From an uncultured Pelagibacteraceae bacterium (GTDB lineage: Bacteria; Pseudomonadota; Alphaproteobacteria; Pelagibacterales; Pelagibacteraceae): a stretch of DNA of 43,802 bases. Both the position numbers and the translations under genes were made by a program. Under the pieces are notes generated by a model, which worked only from the letters and a program-made list of their open reading frames with translations, was not told the origin of the DNA and ran no database searches. The stretch lies in NCBI GenBank assembly GCA_902538745.1, contig CACBGP010000005.1, positions 1 through 43,802 of the forward strand, in the 5' to 3' direction. Shown here piece after piece: positions 4,638-40,581 of this stretch (its first letter is position 1; every line of letters starts with the position of its first letter).

Positions 4638-5663
4638 TTATTCTTTTGAGATAATGACCGTTTGATTGACCTTTTCGATCAAACAACTCCCCAATGTGCT
4701 CTTAGAAAACGAGCTTTTTTGAATTTCTTTGATAATTTTATCAATTTTTTTTCCTCTGACAGAGTAATATTTTTTACTTATAAAATTTAAAGAATCAGAC
4801 AAGGATCTAAATACTACCTCGTGAGGTTGTTTAAAAAATTTGTCGTTTAAAATTAGATGTTTTTTTTTATGTGAAAAAAAAGAATTATTTTCTAAATTTT
4901 TAGTAACATAATAATTAACAACATCATTTGATTTTTTTAAATTTTCAATCGTTTTTATAAATTTTTTTTTATCTAAACCATCATTTTTGAGCCCATTTAA
5001 AAGTTTTCTTATTCTCACCCTTTGGAACTTTTCATCATTATTTGTCGGATCTTTAACATAAAAATCAAAAACTTTTTTGGAAAGAAAAACTAAATCCTCT
5101 TTTTTTTGATTTATTAAAGGTCTTAAAATTGTAACATTTTTTAATTTAGTTTTTTTACTTAATGAAATTAAACCTTTTAGTCCACTACCCCTAAGAATTC
5201 TTATAAAAAAATTTTCAATTAAGTCCTCCTGATGATGTCCCAGCAATATATGCATTACTCCTAGCTTATTACATTTGGAAATCAAAAGTTCAAATCTTTT
5301 TGCTCTTGCTACTGATTGAATATTACTCTTTGGCTTTACTCCTTGCCAATATAAAATTTCAGTATTTATTTGAAATTTATTAAGTATTTTTTTTACATAT
5401 TTTGCCTCATTAGTAGACTCTGATCTTAATTTATGATCAATAATATAAAACTTAACTTTGAGATTTTTTTGAATTGAATAAATTTTAGATAGAAAAGCTA
5501 ATGCAAGACTATCTGGGCCTCCAGATACTGCGACTATAAAATTTTCATTAATACTTAAAGAATTCGCAAACTTTTTATAAATCTGGCTAATCTTTTTATT
5601 TTTTAATTTATTCTTTAAAACTTCAGGAATTTTGATTTTTACACTCAAATTTTTGAGACTCAT
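4638..5663 (-). CDS. tilS: tRNA(Ile)-lysidine synthase TilS
   Basis: The protein (341 residues) carries the PP-loop SGGPDS at 47-52, followed by HHQEDLIENFFIRILRGSGLKGL and RPLI, the core of the N-type ATP pyrophosphatase TilS. TilS ligates lysine to C34 of tRNA-Ile(CAU) so that it reads AUA; AUA is very common in this AT-rich DNA, so the function should be essential. It is shorter than E. coli TilS (about 430 residues) and has only a reduced C-terminal region. The start overlaps the cpoB 3' end by 41 bases; no later Met precedes the PP-loop, so the long overlap looks genuine. Confidence 0.93.
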   Translation of the reverse strand: MSLKNLSVKIKIPEVLKNKLKNKKISQIYKKFANSLSINENFIVAVSGGPDSLALAFLSKIYSIQKNLKVKFYIIDHKLRSESTNEAKYVKKILNKFQINTEILYWQGVKPKSNIQSVARAKRFELLISKCNKLGVMHILLGHHQEDLIENFFIRILRGSGLKGLISLSKKTKLKNVTILRPLINQKKEDLVFLSKKVFDFYVKDPTNNDEKFQRVRIRKLLNGLKNDGLDKKKFIKTIENLKKSNDVVNYYVTKNLENNSFFSHKKKHLILNDKFFKQPHEVVFRSLSDSLNFISKKYYSVRGKKIDKIIKEIQKSSFSKSTLGSCLIEKVNQTVIISKE

Positions 5664-6606
5664 ATTTAGCTTTTTGTATCACAGACTGATTTGCATCTGG
5701 ATATTGTTTTTCAACACCATTAATCATTTTACAACCTTGTTCTTTTTCTCCTATCTGAACCATTGATACACCTAACTTTAATAAATTTACAGGAGCCTTT
5801 TCACCTTTTGGGTATTTTTGATATCCCTCTAAATACGCAGATGCTGCATCGGTATAAAGTTGTCTTATTCTAAAGGTTTCTGCATACCAATATTGTGCAT
5901 TGCCAGCAAGTTTATGCTCTGGATTTGTTTGTACAAATTCTCTAAAAGCTCTTTCTGCTGTAGAGTAATCACCAACCTTTAAAAAGCTCGTAGCAAATTC
6001 GTACTGATTTTCTGGTGACTCGCTTGGAAGAACTTTTTCCTCAGCCTGAAAAGTCTCTGTAATTATTGTTGCAGTTGTATCAATTGATTGAGTTTGTTGA
6101 ACGGTTTCATTAGTATTCGTATCTTTATAAGATATTGAACCAAGATCTTGTGGTTGTGAGCTTCCAGGTAAAGTTTTATCTTTGGAATTTAGAGCCAAAG
6201 TTTTTTTATCATCATTGATAACCGTTGCATTCTCTAAATCCTGAAATCTAATTTGATTATCAGCTTGGACTTTTGACAATCTATTTGATAATTTATCAAG
6301 TTTGAAATTTATTTCCTCAAATCTGTTCGTTAAATTTTGAAATTGATTTTCAATTTCCGTGAGTTTTAATAGGTGTCTTGTTAATACATCTTCCGAATTT
6401 GAATCTAAGGACATATCTGTATTATTTATTTCATTATCTAAATTTGTTGATCCTGAATAAACTGCTCTCTCAAGTGTTTTAATATCTTTTTGTAACTGTT
6501 CTATAGTTTCATAAATGTTATGATTATCTGCAATTAAATTCGAAGAGAGTGAGAGATAGACTATGAATAAAACTTCAAGTCTAAATTTTCTAATAAACGT
6601 CTTCAT
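5623..6606 (-). CDS. cpoB: Tol-Pal accessory protein CpoB (YbgF)
   Basis: The N-terminus is a basic, hydrophobic signal sequence ending near LSSNLIADN, then a coiled-coil region rich in Glu, Lys and Leu (QLQKDIKTLE, QFQNLTNRFEEINFKLDKL). A C-terminal set of tetratricopeptide-like repeats follows (YEFATSFLKVGDYSTAERAF and two more). This is the CpoB/YbgF layout: a periplasmic partner of TolA that coordinates outer-membrane constriction with septal peptidoglycan synthesis. The frame opens at 6654, but those bases lie in the terminator stem-loop after pal, so I take the second Met (6606), which begins a proper signal peptide. It follows pal in the usual order. Confidence 0.9.
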   Translation of the reverse strand: MKTFIRKFRLEVLFIVYLSLSSNLIADNHNIYETIEQLQKDIKTLERAVYSGSTNLDNEINNTDMSLDSNSEDVLTRHLLKLTEIENQFQNLTNRFEEINFKLDKLSNRLSKVQADNQIRFQDLENATVINDDKKTLALNSKDKTLPGSSQPQDLGSISYKDTNTNETVQQTQSIDTTATIITETFQAEEKVLPSESPENQYEFATSFLKVGDYSTAERAFREFVQTNPEHKLAGNAQYWYAETFRIRQLYTDAASAYLEGYQKYPKGEKAPVNLLKLGVSMVQIGEKEQGCKMINGVEKQYPDANQSVIQKAKYESQKFECKNQNS

Positions 6607-25754: not shown

Positions 25755-25865
25755 TTACAATAAGAATATCGCCATTAAAACTAAAACAAATATAACAGCG
25801 ACAGTTCCCCACAGCACAAATTTTGTAAAATTATTCCAAGTATTCTTGTGGTCCTCATTATTCAT
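25755..25865 (-). CDS. aa3-type cytochrome c oxidase subunit IV-like peptide
   Basis: A 36-residue frame begins MNNEDHKNTWNNFTKF, followed by one membrane helix (about residues 17-36). This matches the bacterial aa3-type cytochrome c oxidase subunit IV family: a short N-terminus with a conserved HxxTWxxF pattern and a single helix ending the protein. The family occurs in alphaproteobacteria, commonly near pntA genes in my recollection. It is a single-helix accessory subunit with no known catalytic role. It lies between rpmJ (5-base gap) and pntAA (9-base gap). Confidence 0.82.
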   Translation of the reverse strand: MNNEDHKNTWNNFTKFVLWGTVAVIFVLVLMAIFLL

Positions 25866-25870
25866 AAAAA

Positions 25871-26022: not shown

Positions 26023-26138
26023 GCCTGGCAATGACCTACTCTTCCATGTCTTAAGACAAAGTACCATTGGCGCAGAAAGGCTTGACTTCCGAGTTCGGAA
26101 TGGGATCGGGTATTTCCCTTTCGCAATAATTACCAGGC
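26023..26138 (-). rRNA. rrf: 5S ribosomal RNA, separated from 16S-23S
   Basis: On the minus strand the terminal helix is formed by GCCTGG at the 5' end (26138-26133) and CCAGGC at the 3' end (26028-26023). Inside it lie the invariant 5S segments CCCGATCCCATTCCGAACTCGG and GCCAATGGTACT. Length is about 116 bases. No 23S sequence lies upstream (26139 onwards): a glycosyltransferase gene ends at 26306 instead. The 5S gene is therefore detached from 23S in this window. Ends are accurate to a few bases. Confidence 0.95.
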
Positions 26139-26305: not shown

Positions 26306-27358
26306 TTATTTGAATTCATTTAATAAAATTTCTAAATACTCTTTATTTATAAAATTTTTAGTAAAACTTTTCTTGTAAACATTTTCTTCATAATTGGAAT
26401 TATCATAATATTTTATCAGACGTTCTAAATCTAAATTATTTTTAAAAAAAATTTTCTTTGTGCCCAAAATCTCTTTGTTAAAAGAGCAATCATATGCAAA
26501 AATTTTTTTTTTAAGATTTATAGCTTCAATTAGAGTAGGATTAGTCCCACCAACTTTATGTCCATGAATATAAAAATCAAAAAAAGATAAATAATTTAAA
26601 AGTTTTTTTTTATCGTATATTTCACCAATGTAAAAAATATTTTTTGAATTTCTTATTGATGGTAAAATTTTTTTTTTAAAAAATTCACTTTTATAACCGA
26701 TTATAAATAATTTATAATTATCAAGTTTTTTAAAAGTATTTACAATTAGCTCGACACTATTTTCCTCTAAGAGCCTTCCAATTAGATAAAATCTTTTAAT
26801 TTTATTATTTCTATTAATTATAGAATTACTATTTTCAAATTTTGAAGGGTAATAAATTGTTTTACCATAAGACTTATATTTAATCATATAGTATCTCTCA
26901 ATAACTTTCGAGTCGTAGATTTTTGAAATTTTCATTTTAGCAAATATAAATTCACAAATTTTAAAAAAGTTTTTTTTAATGAAATTGTTAGGCCTTCTCC
27001 ATTCTATACCATCTGGATTACAAATAATTTTACAATTAAATAATTTCAACAGAGGAAAAAAGATAGCAGCCCCATATCCAAAGAACAAGAATACACGCAC
27101 CCCACTTATAAACATCAATATTATAGTCACAAAATAATTAAAAAGTATTAATGGACCAGGGAGTCTAGGAACGTAAATTTGTTTAATATTAAAATATTGT
27201 GATTTTATATTTAAGTCTTTGACGCCAGTGCTTACAAAAAAGAACAAATTTGAATTTAATACTTTTTTATCTTTGACAAATTGATCTACAAATGTATCAA
27301 ATGCTCCATAATTAGCAGGTAAACCTCTAATTCCAATTATACCTAATTTTTTTGACAT
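26306..27358 (-). CDS. Glycosyltransferase with DUF1972 N-terminus (GT4-like)
   Basis: The 350-residue protein begins KKLGIIGIRGLPANYGAFDTF, the signature of DUF1972 rhamnosyltransferase-like proteins. A C-terminal GT-B domain follows, with FYLIGRLLEENSVELIV, FYIGEIYDKKKLLNYLSFFDFYIHGHKVGGTNPTLIEAI, the last containing the nucleotide-sugar-binding E-x-I. It probably adds one sugar from a nucleotide donor at the cytoplasmic face. The ATG lies 16 bases inside the end of the next upstream gene. Donor and acceptor are unknown; it is the island gene closest to 5S. Confidence 0.87.
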   Translation of the reverse strand: MSKKLGIIGIRGLPANYGAFDTFVDQFVKDKKVLNSNLFFFVSTGVKDLNIKSQYFNIKQIYVPRLPGPLILFNYFVTIILMFISGVRVFLFFGYGAAIFFPLLKLFNCKIICNPDGIEWRRPNNFIKKNFFKICEFIFAKMKISKIYDSKVIERYYMIKYKSYGKTIYYPSKFENSNSIINRNNKIKRFYLIGRLLEENSVELIVNTFKKLDNYKLFIIGYKSEFFKKKILPSIRNSKNIFYIGEIYDKKKLLNYLSFFDFYIHGHKVGGTNPTLIEAINLKKKIFAYDCSFNKEILGTKKIFFKNNLDLERLIKYYDNSNYEENVYKKSFTKNFINKEYLEILLNEFK

Positions 27359-30551: not shown

Positions 30552-31487
30552 TTAAACTAAATTTCTTTTCAAATAATCATTAATCGTAATTGATAATCCC
30601 TTTTTCAGTGATGTTTTAGGTCTCCAGCCGTAACTTTTTGCAAGCGATACATCTAAGACTTTTCTCATTGTTCCATTAGGTTTAGTCTTCTTATAGACAA
30701 TTTTAAAATTAACACCTAAATGTTTCATTATAAATTTAGCATAATCAGTGATACTTTTGTCTTTTCCTGTTCCGATGTTAATTAAACTTTGTGACGTTTT
30801 TTTTTTTAAAAAAAAGATACATGCATCAGCAATATCCTCACTATAAATTAATTCTCTTAAAGGTCTGCCGTCCCCCCAAATACTAATTTCCTTTTTTTTG
30901 TATCTTATCGCATCTATAATTTTTTTAATTAAAGCAGGAAAAAAATGAGACTCTATTGGGTCGTAATTATCATTAATCCCATAAGCATTACAAGGCATTA
31001 AACATTTATAATTTAGTTTATATTGTTTGTTGTAGCTCTGGCAAAGACTTATTCCTGCTATCTTAGCAATAGCATATGGTTCATTAGTTTTTTCTAGATA
31101 GCCTGACAATAAGTATTTTTCCTTAATTGGTTGTTCACTTAATTTTGGATAAATACAACTTGAACCTAAAAATATTAGATCTTTGACTCCAGTCAAATAG
31201 CTTGAGTGAATAACACTATTCTGTATAGTTAAATTATCATATATAAAATCTCCCCCAAATGTATTATTTGCCTCTATGCCACCTACTTTAGCTGCTGCCA
31301 AAATAACAGCGTCAGGTTTGATTTTTGAGAAATATTTTAAAACTTTATTTTGATCTCTTAAATCCAAAAGTTTTCTCGATCTAGTAAAAATTCTATTGTA
31401 ATTTGAGTTTTTAAGTTTTTTTAATATTGCAGATCCAATAAGCCCATTGTGTCCAGCAACATAAATTTTAGATTTTTTGCTGATCAT
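30552..31487 (-). CDS. fcl: GDP-L-fucose synthase
   Basis: The SDR protein (about 311 residues) shows the NAD(P) motif AGHNGLIGS, LAAAKVGGI, FLGSSCIYP, NEPYAIAKIAG (YxxxK catalytic pair), and PCNAYGINDNYDPIESHFFPALI. These identify GDP-4-keto-6-deoxymannose 3,5-epimerase/4-reductase. With gmd it makes GDP-L-fucose from GDP-mannose. I use the ATG at 31487, which begins the conserved N-terminus; the frame extends to a TTG at 31502. It overlaps the gmd end by about 20 bases. Confidence 0.95.
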   Translation of the reverse strand: MISKKSKIYVAGHNGLIGSAILKKLKNSNYNRIFTRSRKLLDLRDQNKVLKYFSKIKPDAVILAAAKVGGIEANNTFGGDFIYDNLTIQNSVIHSSYLTGVKDLIFLGSSCIYPKLSEQPIKEKYLLSGYLEKTNEPYAIAKIAGISLCQSYNKQYKLNYKCLMPCNAYGINDNYDPIESHFFPALIKKIIDAIRYKKKEISIWGDGRPLRELIYSEDIADACIFFLKKKTSQSLINIGTGKDKSITDYAKFIMKHLGVNFKIVYKKTKPNGTMRKVLDVSLAKSYGWRPKTSLKKGLSITINDYLKRNLV

Positions 31488-32517
31488 CTTTATTAAATTC
31501 AAATTCGTATGCCACCATATCCTTGATCAGTTGATGAATGTTGTATTTTGGTTTCCATTTTAAAACTCTTTTAGCCTTAGCATAACTCCCTTTTAATGAA
31601 CTAACTTCTGCAGGTCTAAAGTATTTTTTATTACATTCGATGATCAAATTATTTTTTTCATCATATGCTTTTTGATTAATTCCTTTACCTTTCCATTTAA
31701 TTTTCATTTTTAACTCTTTGGTTACAAAGTTTATAAATTGTTTAATGGTATATTGCTTGCCTGTACAAATTACAAAATCGTCAGGTTTTTTTTGCTGCAT
31801 AATTTTCCACATTGCCCTAACATAATCTTTAGCATGTCCCCAGTCTCTTTTTGAGTTTATATTTCCAAGAACAACTTTTTTTTGTTTTTTTAATTTGATT
31901 CTACAAAGACCCTTGATAATTTTTTTTGTAACAAAATTTTCACCTCTTAGTGGACTTTCATGATTAAATAAAATTCCATTACATGCAAAGAGATTATATG
32001 CCTCACGATAATTGACTGTTATCCAATGAGAGTATAATTTTGCTACGCCATAAGGGCTTCTTGGATAAAAGGGTGTTTTTTCGCTTTGTGTTGCCTCTTG
32101 AACTTTACCAAACATTTCTGATGTTCCTGCTTGATAAAATTTAATTTTTTTTTTTGATTGAACGATAGCGTCCAAAATCCTCAATGTTCCAAGAGCATCT
32201 ACATTAGTTGTATACTCTGGTAATTCAAAAGAGATACCAACATGCGATTGAGCTGCAAGATTATAGATCTCATTTGGTTTAATCTTATTTATTAATTTAA
32301 AAACATTTAACGAATCTGAAATATCACCATAATGCAAATAAAAGTTTGTTTTTTTGATTAGAGGATCTTTGTAAATATCATCTATTCTATAGGTATTTAA
32401 CGTAGAATGTCTTCTTTTTACCCCATGGACAACGTAATCCTTATCTAATAAAAACTTTGAAAGATAGGCACCATCTTGACCGGTCACCCCAAAAATTAGT
32501 GCAATTTTTTTATTCAT
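31468..32517 (-). CDS. gmd: GDP-mannose 4,6-dehydratase
   Basis: The 349-residue enzyme has FGVTGQDGAYLSKFLLDK, GVKRRHSTLNT, NLAAQSHVGISFELPEYT, GTSEMFG and SPYGVAKLYSHW with the YxxxK pair, ending in RPAEVSSLKGSYAKA. This is a standard Gmd, producing GDP-4-keto-6-deoxymannose. It lies downstream of the 465-base region holding gene remnants, so its transcription probably starts near 32520-32600; a TATAAA-like hexamer there is not convincing. fcl follows with overlap. Confidence 0.97.
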   Translation of the reverse strand: MNKKIALIFGVTGQDGAYLSKFLLDKDYVVHGVKRRHSTLNTYRIDDIYKDPLIKKTNFYLHYGDISDSLNVFKLINKIKPNEIYNLAAQSHVGISFELPEYTTNVDALGTLRILDAIVQSKKKIKFYQAGTSEMFGKVQEATQSEKTPFYPRSPYGVAKLYSHWITVNYREAYNLFACNGILFNHESPLRGENFVTKKIIKGLCRIKLKKQKKVVLGNINSKRDWGHAKDYVRAMWKIMQQKKPDDFVICTGKQYTIKQFINFVTKELKMKIKWKGKGINQKAYDEKNNLIIECNKKYFRPAEVSSLKGSYAKAKRVLKWKPKYNIHQLIKDMVAYEFEFNKDDQQKI

Positions 32518-32600: not shown

Positions 32601-32978
32601 TTAGATTTTATTTTTTGGTATAAAAAAAATATTGACACTATTTTTAGAATATTTCTCTAACTTATATCTTCCATTTATTAACTTTTTAATTTCGTTATCG
32701 TTGAATTTTTTAAATATATTTTCATCATACAGATAAGAATAGCAAAAATATTTTTTTTGAGTATTTCATAAATTTTAAAAAAATTTTCCCTATTATATTC
32801 AGATAATATTATTGGAAAATCTCTTTTCATTTTTTTTGAATAATATTTTGAGCGCATAATAATCTTTGTCGTGGGGTAATAGCATTTTAAGATAGTATAA
32901 ATTGTTATAAATAAAAATTTGTAAAAAAGGTATTTTTTCATTTTTATTTATAAGCTGATATTTAATACCAGATATCAT
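32601..32978 (-). pseudogene. Gutted FkbM-type methyltransferase remnant
   Basis: Three frame pieces read leftwards as one decayed gene. Piece 1 (ATG at 32978, 3 bases beyond the upstream UbiA-family stop) gives about 52 residues including LKMLLPHDKDYYALKILFKKN, like the N-terminus of FkbM-type methyltransferases. Piece 2, in another frame from about 32840, reads KRDFPIILSEYNRENFFKIYEILKK. Piece 3 (32750-32601), reached by one base change in an A8 run (32751-32758), reads YFCYSYLYDENIFKKF and ends VNIFFIPKNKI. The C-terminal pieces match FkbM ends. The SAM-binding core (motif I and the DxEG region) is absent, so an internal deletion plus a frameshift is inferred. Confidence 0.7.
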
Positions 32979-32981
32979 TTA

Positions 32982-33824
32982 TTACTTACCAAAAAATATA
33001 ATCAAAAATAAAACGAAAAAAGCGAAAGAGATAGAAAACTTATCTTTCATACAGTATATGAATGGATCATTTTTGATCTCACCCTGATAGGCCTTTTTTC
33101 TTAGATAAAAAATCCAAGCTGAAAATGAAGTAATTATAAAAAATACAATTATAGTATCATAAAATAAAACTCCATCTCCTAGAAGAAAATAATAAAACAG
33201 AACTAAAACTGATATGAAAAAAAAAATATAGAAAATAAAATCAATATTTGTTTTGTTGTAGTATCTAGACTTATAATATAGACTGCCTGAAGTTTTTAAC
33301 TCACTCATTCTTTTTAGAGCCAATAAAGTTAAAAATAAAGAAAAACTAATTAATACTAAATAAAATGATGAACTTATTCCATAAATATGTTCTCCAGAGT
33401 AAACCCTTAAAAAAAGCATTGATGAAATAAAAATTATATCAATTAAAAAATATTTTTTAAAAAACATTGAATAAATCACACTCAAAAAAAAATAAATATT
33501 TATTATTATTAAAAAATTTATCGATATTAAAGAAGCTAAGATATTAGAGAGAATAAATAAAATACATGAAATAATTTTTGCGTTTTTTATTAATATTTGA
33601 CCAGATTGAATAGGTCTTAATTTTTTTTGTGGATGCTTTATATCTTTTTTAAAGTCTAATAAATCATTAATTATATAACCAGAAGACGCAATTAAACAGA
33701 ATGAAAAGAATGAAATATATACTTTGTAACTTATTAAAAGTTCATATTGGTGAATAAATATAGCGTTAGAGAAGATTAAAAGATTTTTAACCCATTGCTG
33801 CACTCTTAAAAGAGAAAGAATCAT
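32982..33824 (-). CDS. UbiA-family prenyltransferase, decaprenyl-phosphate phosphoribosyltransferase type
   Basis: The 280-residue protein has about eight or nine helices. Its start (SLLRVQQWVKNLLIF) and first Asp-rich motif (NDLLDFKKDIKHPQKKLRPI) match the phosphoribosyl-transferring branch of UbiA enzymes, such as mycobacterial Rv3806c. That enzyme makes polyprenyl-phosphoryl-5-phosphoribose from PRPP. The second helical half has ALKRMSEL, also shared with it. I infer that it starts polyprenyl-phosphate pentose synthesis used by the DprE1/DprE2 pair at 38597-40581. Aromatic prenyltransfer is less likely given the RVQQWVKN and HPxKxxRPI pattern. Its start overlaps the methyltransferase stop by one base. 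Confidence 0.88.
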   Translation of the reverse strand: MILSLLRVQQWVKNLLIFSNAIFIHQYELLISYKVYISFFSFCLIASSGYIINDLLDFKKDIKHPQKKLRPIQSGQILIKNAKIISCILFILSNILASLISINFLIIINIYFFLSVIYSMFFKKYFLIDIIFISSMLFLRVYSGEHIYGISSSFYLVLISFSLFLTLLALKRMSELKTSGSLYYKSRYYNKTNIDFIFYIFFFISVLVLFYYFLLGDGVLFYDTIIVFFIITSFSAWIFYLRKKAYQGEIKNDPFIYCMKDKFSISFAFFVLFLIIFFGK

Positions 33825-38596: not shown

Positions 38597-39898
38597 ATGA
38601 GTATAAGTTATAATCTAAAAAGCTTTGGCAACAATATAAAAATAAACAGTAATATAGAGTTTTTAAAAAGAAATAGAAATAATTCTTTACAAAATTTAAA
38701 AATTACAAATTCTATTACAAGAGGTAAAGGAAGTTCCTATGGAGACTCTAGTATAAATAAATCAAAAACATTCTTGTCTGAAAATTTAAATAGAATAATT
38801 TTTTTTGATAAAAAAAAAGGGATTATTTCGTGCGAAGCAGGAATTACTATATCTAGTATATTAAAATTAATAGTTAATGAAGGTTGGTTTCTTCCAGTTA
38901 CACCGGGTAGTAAAAAAATTAGTTTAGGTGGAATGATAGCCTCAAATGTGCATGGAAAAAACCAGCACTCAGAAGGATGTTTTCACAATTTCATACACTC
39001 TATTGAACTGCTTTATAAAAATAAAAAAATTCTTTATTGCACAAAAAAAAATAATAAAGAAATATTTGATTATACCATTGGAGGAATGGGCTTAACAGGT
39101 ATAATTTTATCTGCAACTTTTAAATTAAAAAAAATAAAAAGTAATAAAATTACTCAAGTCACTAAGGTTTTGAACAGCGTAGATAAAATCATATATGATA
39201 TGAGTAATAACAAAAGTGAATATGCTGTTTCATGGATTGACTTTAATGATCAAAATAATAGAGGAATAGTATTTTATGGAAATCATAGTAAGAAAAAAAA
39301 TAATTCGGAATATCTTGAAAATTCAAAAAAATTTTTCAGAATTAATAATCTTTTTTTAAATAATTTTACAATTAGAATTTTCAATAAACTTTATTTTTAT
39401 TTAAATCTCATCTTAAATAACAAAAAAAGAAGAGAAATAAATCTAAATCAATTTTTTTATCCCTTAGACAAAATTGATAATTGGAATTTAATGTATGGTA
39501 ATAATGGTTTTTTTCAATATCAATTTACTTTACCATTTAAAAATTGGAAAAAAGCATTAACTGAAATAAAAAAAAAATTCAAAGAACATAATGTCATAGC
39601 TTATTTATGTGTAATGAAATTAATGAAGAATGAAAAAAAATTAATGTCCTTTTCCGAAGAGGGTTTAAATTTTGCAATAGATTTTAAAAATAACTTAAAC
39701 GCAAAATTATTAATGAATGAATTAGATAAAATATTAATTAGATATAAAGGATTTGTATATCTTGCTAAAGATTCAAGATTAAATTCTAAAAACGCAAAAA
39801 AATTAGTTAAACATTACGAATTATTTAGAAAATTTAGAAAAAAAAATAATTTAGATAAAATTTTTATTTCTATGCAGTCAAAAAGGGTTGGGTTGTGA
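38597..39898 (+). CDS. dprE1: DprE1-like polyprenylphosphoryl-ribose 2'-oxidase
   Basis: The 433-residue FAD protein (PCMH-type fold) shows TRGKGSSYGDSSIN (41-53), GITISSILKLI, LPVTPGSKKISLGGMIASNVHGKNQHSEG (HGKN at 119-122) and GGMGLTGII. The C-terminus carries YLAKDSR with Lys391. Position and order match mycobacterial DprE1, which oxidises decaprenylphosphoryl-beta-D-ribose at C2' en route to D-arabinofuranose. The C-terminal strand equivalent to the one bearing the benzothiazinone-target cysteine (Cys387 in M. tuberculosis) reads NFAIDF, with Ala360 instead. Followed by a DprE2-like gene overlapping by 4 bases. Confidence 0.9.
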   Translation: MSISYNLKSFGNNIKINSNIEFLKRNRNNSLQNLKITNSITRGKGSSYGDSSINKSKTFLSENLNRIIFFDKKKGIISCEAGITISSILKLIVNEGWFLPVTPGSKKISLGGMIASNVHGKNQHSEGCFHNFIHSIELLYKNKKILYCTKKNNKEIFDYTIGGMGLTGIILSATFKLKKIKSNKITQVTKVLNSVDKIIYDMSNNKSEYAVSWIDFNDQNNRGIVFYGNHSKKKNNSEYLENSKKFFRINNLFLNNFTIRIFNKLYFYLNLILNNKKRREINLNQFFYPLDKIDNWNLMYGNNGFFQYQFTLPFKNWKKALTEIKKKFKEHNVIAYLCVMKLMKNEKKLMSFSEEGLNFAIDFKNNLNAKLLMNELDKILIRYKGFVYLAKDSRLNSKNAKKLVKHYELFRKFRKKNNLDKIFISMQSKRVGL

Positions 39899-40581
39899 AA
39901 AATAAAAAAATTCTTATTTTTGGATCTGGTTCAGATATAGCAATTGAACTAATTAAACTTTTAGAAAAAAACAACACAATAATAAAAATTTCCTCAAAAA
40001 AAAATTCTAATTTTAATAATGATAACAATCGTGAATTTTATAGTACATTTCAAGATTACGAGACCGTAGATAATATAATTAAAAAAATTGATGAGATTGA
40101 TCTTGTTCTAATTTTTAATGGTATGCTTAAATCTTCTAAAGAAAAAAAATTTGAGAAAGAGCGTGAGCTAAATAATATCAATTTTCTATACCCAACTTAC
40201 ATAATCTCTAAAATAATAGATAAATTTGAAAATAAAAAAATTCATATCGCGGCCATCTCTTCGGTAGCAGGAGAAAGAGGGAGGTTTAAAAATACAGCTT
40301 ATGGCTCAAACAAGGCAGCATTAACAAATTATTTATCTAGTATAAGACAGAAATATTCAAATATAGATGTCACGACAATTATTTTGGGAACAGTAAAAAC
40401 AAAAATGACTAAGGAAATCAAACAGCCTAAATTTTTAATTGATGATCCAAATGACGTAGCTAGAATGATTTTTAAAGGTTTATCTAAAAAAAAAGAAATA
40501 ATAATTTCAAATAAATGGAGATTAATAACTTTTTTTATTAAAATTATACCAGAAAAAATATTTAAAAGATTAAAGTTTTAA
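39895..40581 (+). CDS. dprE2: DprE2-like NAD(P)H reductase of the arabinofuranose pathway
   Basis: The 228-residue short-chain dehydrogenase has ILIFGSGSDIAIEL, VLIFNGML and the catalytic segment SSVAGERGRFKNTAYGSNKAAL (split by YxxxK). It ends NKWRLITFFIKIIPEKIFKRL, closely like the C-terminus of mycobacterial DprE2. DprE2 reduces the 2-keto intermediate to give decaprenylphosphoryl-D-arabinose. It starts with GTG overlapping the DprE1-like stop (GTGA) and ends 1 base before the GT-C gene, so the three are coupled. The pairing with DprE1 and the AGER segment make this more specific than a generic SDR. Confidence 0.9.
   Translation: MKNKKILIFGSGSDIAIELIKLLEKNNTIIKISSKKNSNFNNDNNREFYSTFQDYETVDNIIKKIDEIDLVLIFNGMLKSSKEKKFEKERELNNINFLYPTYIISKIIDKFENKKIHIAAISSVAGERGRFKNTAYGSNKAALTNYLSSIRQKYSNIDVTTIILGTVKTKMTKEIKQPKFLIDDPNDVARMIFKGLSKKKEIIISNKWRLITFFIKIIPEKIFKRLKF

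Follow-up and report, generated by a model that had tools for sequence, protein, structure and literature searches.

A probable FkbM-type methyltransferase pseudogene with its middle deleted in a SAR11 surface-glycan island

The window, by which we mean the whole stretch of 43,802 nucleotides analysed here, is contig C5 of an 852,500-base genome from an uncultured Pelagibacteraceae bacterium, which was assembled into 39 contigs and is 73.6% complete. On the minus strand, the remains of a gene lie between a UbiA-family prenyltransferase gene upstream and gmd, encoding GDP-mannose 4,6-dehydratase, downstream, in an interval of 464 nt with a GC content of 17% (Table 1). The remnant ends 83 nt before gmd, gmd is followed by fcl, and genes on the same strand run on to position 26306, with the 5S rRNA next; the remnant is therefore not at the end of the cassette, where a sequence-only reading of the window had placed it. 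Within the gap, an RNA search returned only a sub-threshold U6-like match (E 0.41), no terminator-like site was detected, and there were 5 promoter-like sites, where shuffled sequences averaged 5.9. The UbiA-family protein resembles decaprenyl-phosphate phosphoribosyltransferase, under the NCBIfam cut-offs, and its gene shares one island of the window with a DprE1-like gene (38597–39898) and a DprE2-like gene (39895–40581). As a set, the three suggest a decaprenyl-phosphate arabinose-type pathway, on the strength of NCBIfam matches that are all below the cut-offs.

Table 1 Features of the remnant and its surroundings in the window, in order along the minus strand.
Feature	Position	Strand	Evidence or remark
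Further FkbM-domain gene, 146 open codons	43362–43802	-	PF05050, 53.5 bits; runs off contig end
UbiA-family prenyltransferase, upstream neighbour	32982–33824	-	PF01040, E 1e-19
N-terminal FkbM piece, 52 codons, frame 0	32823–32978	-	Profile 7–59, 65.0 bits; 35/52 residues identical to L046, 35/52 to L044
87-codon ORF, accidental frame over the out-of-frame N-terminal piece and the first C-terminal piece	32678–32941	-	
Approximate deletion joint	32814–32823	-	About 147 codons missing, with frame change
First C-terminal piece FPIILSEYNRENFFKIYEILKK, other frame	32753–32818	-	Profile 201–238, 22.7 bits
A8 run (T8 on the plus strand)	32751–32758	-	Reading goes back to the frame of the N-terminal piece
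Second C-terminal piece KYFCYSYLYDENIF...NIFFIPKNKI	32604–32753	-	Profile 228–277, 34.7 bits; stop at 32601–32603
gmd (GDP-mannose 4,6-dehydratase), downstream neighbour	31468–32517	-	PF16363, E 4.6e-137
5S rRNA	26023–26137	-	5S-side border of probable HVR2
pntA sRNA	25808–25869	-	Marks the 5S-side border of probable HVR2 together with the 5S rRNA

Both ends of a gene survive in the remnant, on a single strand and in their proper order. Starting from the UbiA side, an ATG at 32978–32976, 3 nt past the UbiA stop, opens a frame of 59 codons (MISGIKYQ...NNII) that stops at 32801–32799, and the first 52 of these form a FkbM-like N-terminus. The C-terminal part, 32818–32604, is split in two: the stretch FPIILSEYNRENFF, which is FkbM-like as the sequence-only reading had proposed, lies in another frame than the N-terminal peptide, and the frame shifts again at the A8 run before the closing NIFFIPKNKI, also as first described. 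No extra stops occur inside the 124 aligned codons.

The resemblance of these pieces to FkbM proteins was measured with a profile HMM of 15 distinct SAR11 homologues, 14 of them full-length; L043 was included though shortened by a frame change. Left out were L047 (labelled Saprospiraceae), L068 (lowest identity) and the non-SAR11 loci L053–L058, as well as L011, L012, L014, L059–L062, L066 and L067, which were treated as duplicates on the basis of equal match identities and spans; L043 and L049 were in turn left out of alignment A2. The three pieces match the profile collinearly, with 65.0, 22.7 and 34.7 bits, and the best of 500 dinucleotide-preserving shuffles of the region scored 6.9 bits, so the matches lie far beyond chance. 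That AT-rich intergenic DNA merely happens to look like FkbM ends is an idea invited by the very low GC content and by the weak AT-rich DNA matches that are common in these genomes; against scores of this size, collinear and on one strand, it is so improbable as to be negligible, and we ruled it out by the comparison with the shuffles.

The homologues came from a search with the C-terminal piece, in which 71 of 397 genomes, counting the own genome, had a match. Many of these matches are short, interrupted, AT-rich frames and some lie in open frames (for example L021, L025 and L038); three open homologues (L011, L012 and L014) founded a first profile, and all three, the ones scanned among the 15 homologues of the larger profile, are PF05050 FkbM proteins. 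With this three-founder profile, 10 of 399 congeneric genomes gave a match at E ≤ 1e-25, and the named genomes gave 19 loci, namely 12 labelled Pelagibacteraceae (L040–L046 and L048–L052), L047 and 6 distant ones. The two ends of the remnant share homology with a single set of PF05050 proteins and match the same FkbM genes, which bears out the proposed descent from a single FkbM family.

The closest named counterparts, the FkbM methyltransferases of AG-918-E02 (L046) and AH-287-G21 (L044), have N- and C-terminal sequence in common with the remnant, but theirs are open genes of about 270–280 codons, whereas the remnant has lost about 147 codons and its frame. The nearest relative by DNA, G501, which we judged to be the same gene as L044, is 77% identical over 146 nt on the N-terminal side (E 1.5e-26) and 67% identical over about 194 nt on the C-terminal side (E 2.3e-5); this second match, alone no better than the AT-rich background, gains its weight from the collinearity and the protein match. 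The gap between the two end matches is 461 nt in G501 and 18 nt in the window.

The missing middle contains the part that a working enzyme of this family would need. The pieces align only to residues 1–52 and 203–273 of the 274-residue L046 protein, and profile positions from about 60 to 200 have no counterpart in the window. Nine of the 15 homologues were given to the core-length comparison, in which 147 codons are missing relative to seven of the eight measured relatives and 146 relative to the eighth, L044 yielding no length since the pattern was not found. Both DVGG, which begins at residue 57 in L046 numbering, and IDVEG, whose last residue is 185, fall in the lost part, and nearly all of the PF05050 match goes with it; in the 279-residue L011/L040 protein that match spans residues 59–215. 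The SAM-binding core with these two motifs is thus absent from the remnant, as the sequence-only reading had said. In a predicted model of the intact L046 protein (13 sequences, pLDDT 85.6), the central strands, from E54–58 to E176–181, fall within the lost part. The best solved match to this model is the FkbM structure 2py6 from Methylobacillus flagellatus (E 9.6e-8, TM 0.50, rmsd 10.5), also the sole PDB sequence match at E ≤ 0.01; the fold match is weak (TM 0.50 by query, 15% identity) and concerns the intact relatives, not the remnant. Judging from the predicted fold, the leftover ends would be unable to bind SAM in the usual way.

The position of the joint can be approached through the relatives. 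One residue ahead of the D of DVGG, L040–L043 carry RDF and five other relatives carry similar triplets; the residues that precede the proline on the C side are different ones in the relatives, mostly rich in K and N. In the window, RDF stands directly before the C-side proline, but in the C-side frame. This places the joint, approximately, at 32814–32823, in or beside A-rich sequence and with a frame change. The ancestor would have been a SAR11 gene for a FkbM-type SAM-dependent methyltransferase, probably a sugar O-methyltransferase, in a surface-glycan island near the 5S rRNA. An internal deletion of about 441 nt, perhaps by a slip between A-rich short repeats, would have removed the SAM-binding core, and the frame changes near the joint and at the A8 run would keep the two ends from being read as a single protein. 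The surface glycan of the cell would then no longer receive the methyl group that this enzyme supplied. The FkbM family is still present in this cell, because the genome holds three other PF05050 places, including one where the contig with the remnant ends.

With intact homologues elsewhere and disabling lesions here, the locus is very probably, as far as its sequence tells, a pseudogene of a FkbM-type methyltransferase that has lost its middle in a surface-glycan island. The one genome in which it occurs belongs to a set of 399 genomes of the genus, drawn from a larger group, that were searched by DNA with two candidate places scored per genome. At least 340 of the 399, the own genome included, had some DNA match at E ≤ 0.001; among the matches listed, none of the other 398 genomes had the same remnant, only the own genome matched it whole, and the next best match to the whole remnant covered 146 nt. 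As no other searched genome showed it, the remnant might be a variant of one cell or an artefact of amplification or assembly. If whole-genome amplification or assembly had made a chimeric join between A-rich repeats, the true gene would be intact, and three observations point that way: the assembly is fragmented and incomplete, the remnant was seen in a single genome among the matches listed, and the named relatives carry AG- and AH- isolate names, with MAG in some titles. Isolates so named are presumably single-amplified genomes. Such an artefact would have to account for the frame change at the A8 run as well, which is separate from the one near the joint, and 24 other ORFs of the window stay open across 87 A/T runs of at least 8, a control that is weak against homopolymer error since these ORFs were chosen for being open. 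Nor does the window have another gap of at least 200 nt free of ORFs, apart from the 5S region, by a measure that the remnant itself escapes. We consider an artefact unlikely, and the pseudogene the better account of the locus.

One open frame does run across the remnant. The 87-codon ORF covers part of it, as had been noticed, in a frame that is accidental. Its first 38 residues are similar to L044 and L040/L011, and weakly to L045, but only as a shadow left by FkbM DNA read in the wrong frame; its middle is the true C-terminal piece; and its last 22 residues gave nothing convincing among 154 loci. In L044, the one relative in which it was checked, the matching frame contains a stop, so conservation of the ORF, which would have spoken against a pseudogene, was not seen there. 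A scan of the ORF against Pfam found no family at E ≤ 0.001. On this sequence evidence it is an accidental frame and no conserved gene, liable to be wrongly annotated as a hypothetical protein. A new role for the remains as a small functional protein, whether this ORF or the 59-codon peptide, is very unlikely: both frames are open, and the start of the peptide just past the UbiA stop would permit coupled translation, but the N-terminal part of the longer frame is a shadow, a stop cuts it in L044, it has no Pfam match, and it occurs in no other genome among the DNA-search matches listed.

The pseudogene looks young. The root-to-tip distance of the surviving ends is 0.852, within the 0.744–1.131 of the 15 homologues, in a tree with support of 30–55% near the remnant. 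The pN/pS of the pieces is 0.45–0.58 against seven relatives, compared with 0.14–0.59 in the 21 pairs among those seven, and this slightly high ratio says little about the date, because synonymous sites are near saturation. The remaining ends have diverged no further than functional genes have, which suggests a recent loss. The earlier proposal of a recent loss thus agrees with ends that have no excess divergence, which fit it but do not date it.

The surroundings can be compared with those in relatives. In L046 (AG-918-E02), an intact FkbM gene ends 61 nt before the start of gmd, followed by fcl and then the 5S rRNA, and its gmd, 74% identical to that of the window, is the most similar among those compared. 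The FkbM gene and gmd are separated by the 5S rRNA in L040 and L041, and by an epimerase gene plus the 5S rRNA in L042 and L043; exact synteny rests on one locus, L046, because the 5S rRNA intervenes in four of the five loci with a close gmd. Downstream of the FkbM gene and on the same strand, the 5S rRNA is found in 9 of the 12 named SAR11 loci. On the upstream side, a search of 150 genomes with the UbiA protein at E ≤ 1e-20 gave six with a match, including the own genome, the five others being 31–37% identical, and no UbiA relative at E ≤ 1e-10 was found in L040–L052. In this sample, the UbiA neighbour is therefore peculiar to this cassette, and the intact homologue that had been expected after the same UbiA gene was found on the gmd side, in L046, and not on the UbiA side.

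The gmd–fcl pair stands on the island side of the 5S rRNA in L046 and in the window and beyond it in L040–L043, there between the 5S rRNA and the pntA sRNA where the latter is seen; among these loci, gmd–fcl or the 5S border has changed place. In L040, 467 nt free of ORFs (5841–6307) lie between an open FkbM gene and the 5S rRNA, and a comparison with the proteins of the window and of the other loci gave nothing at E ≤ 0.01.

HVR2 is described, in passages of PMC2217521, as the SAR11 island between the 23S and 5S rRNA, and the 5S rRNA of the window likewise flanks this kind of surface-glycan gene island. Because the 5S rRNA flanks the island, the remnant probably lies in HVR2, about 6.5 kb from the 5S rRNA and not at the end of the island; no 23S rRNA was found within the window, and the contig ends at 43802. 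The same passages report that genes turn over and that a hypothetical gene has a 13-nt repeat deletion, whereas here a methyltransferase has been gutted. According to a part of PMC4033161, the island is exchanged between strains via homologous recombination.

As gene loss, the remnant is real but unremarkable: it records a single step in the turnover of a streamlined genome's variable surface island and points to no new mechanism. Its interest is modest, and stems from a passage in the review PMC4285135 that refers to Giovannoni et al. 2005 and reports strain HTCC1062 to be free of pseudogenes. The statement of the sequence-only reading that such losses are uncommon in SAR11 would have this passage, on one strain, behind it. 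On a bolder reading, FkbM genes that lie close to the 5S end of HVR2 would be inactivated time and again, in independent events, so that methylation of the surface glycan is diversified in an on/off manner under pressure from phages. It draws on the deletion in the window together with L043 (AG-898-G21, 4977–5735), where a C-terminal frame change cuts the open frame to 252 codons, compared with 280 in its close relative L042. We hold this reading to be speculative and rather improbable. A literature search for work joining FkbM methyltransferases with phage and polysaccharide O-methylation found nothing. Among viral contigs, the best 80 of 261 matches include no close relative of the gene, the top ones being 32–33% identical, with two short segments at 40%. 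A relative 41% identical to the SAR11 FkbM proteins is present at L047, on a contig labelled as a Saprospiraceae MAG, which reflects either transfer or mis-binning.
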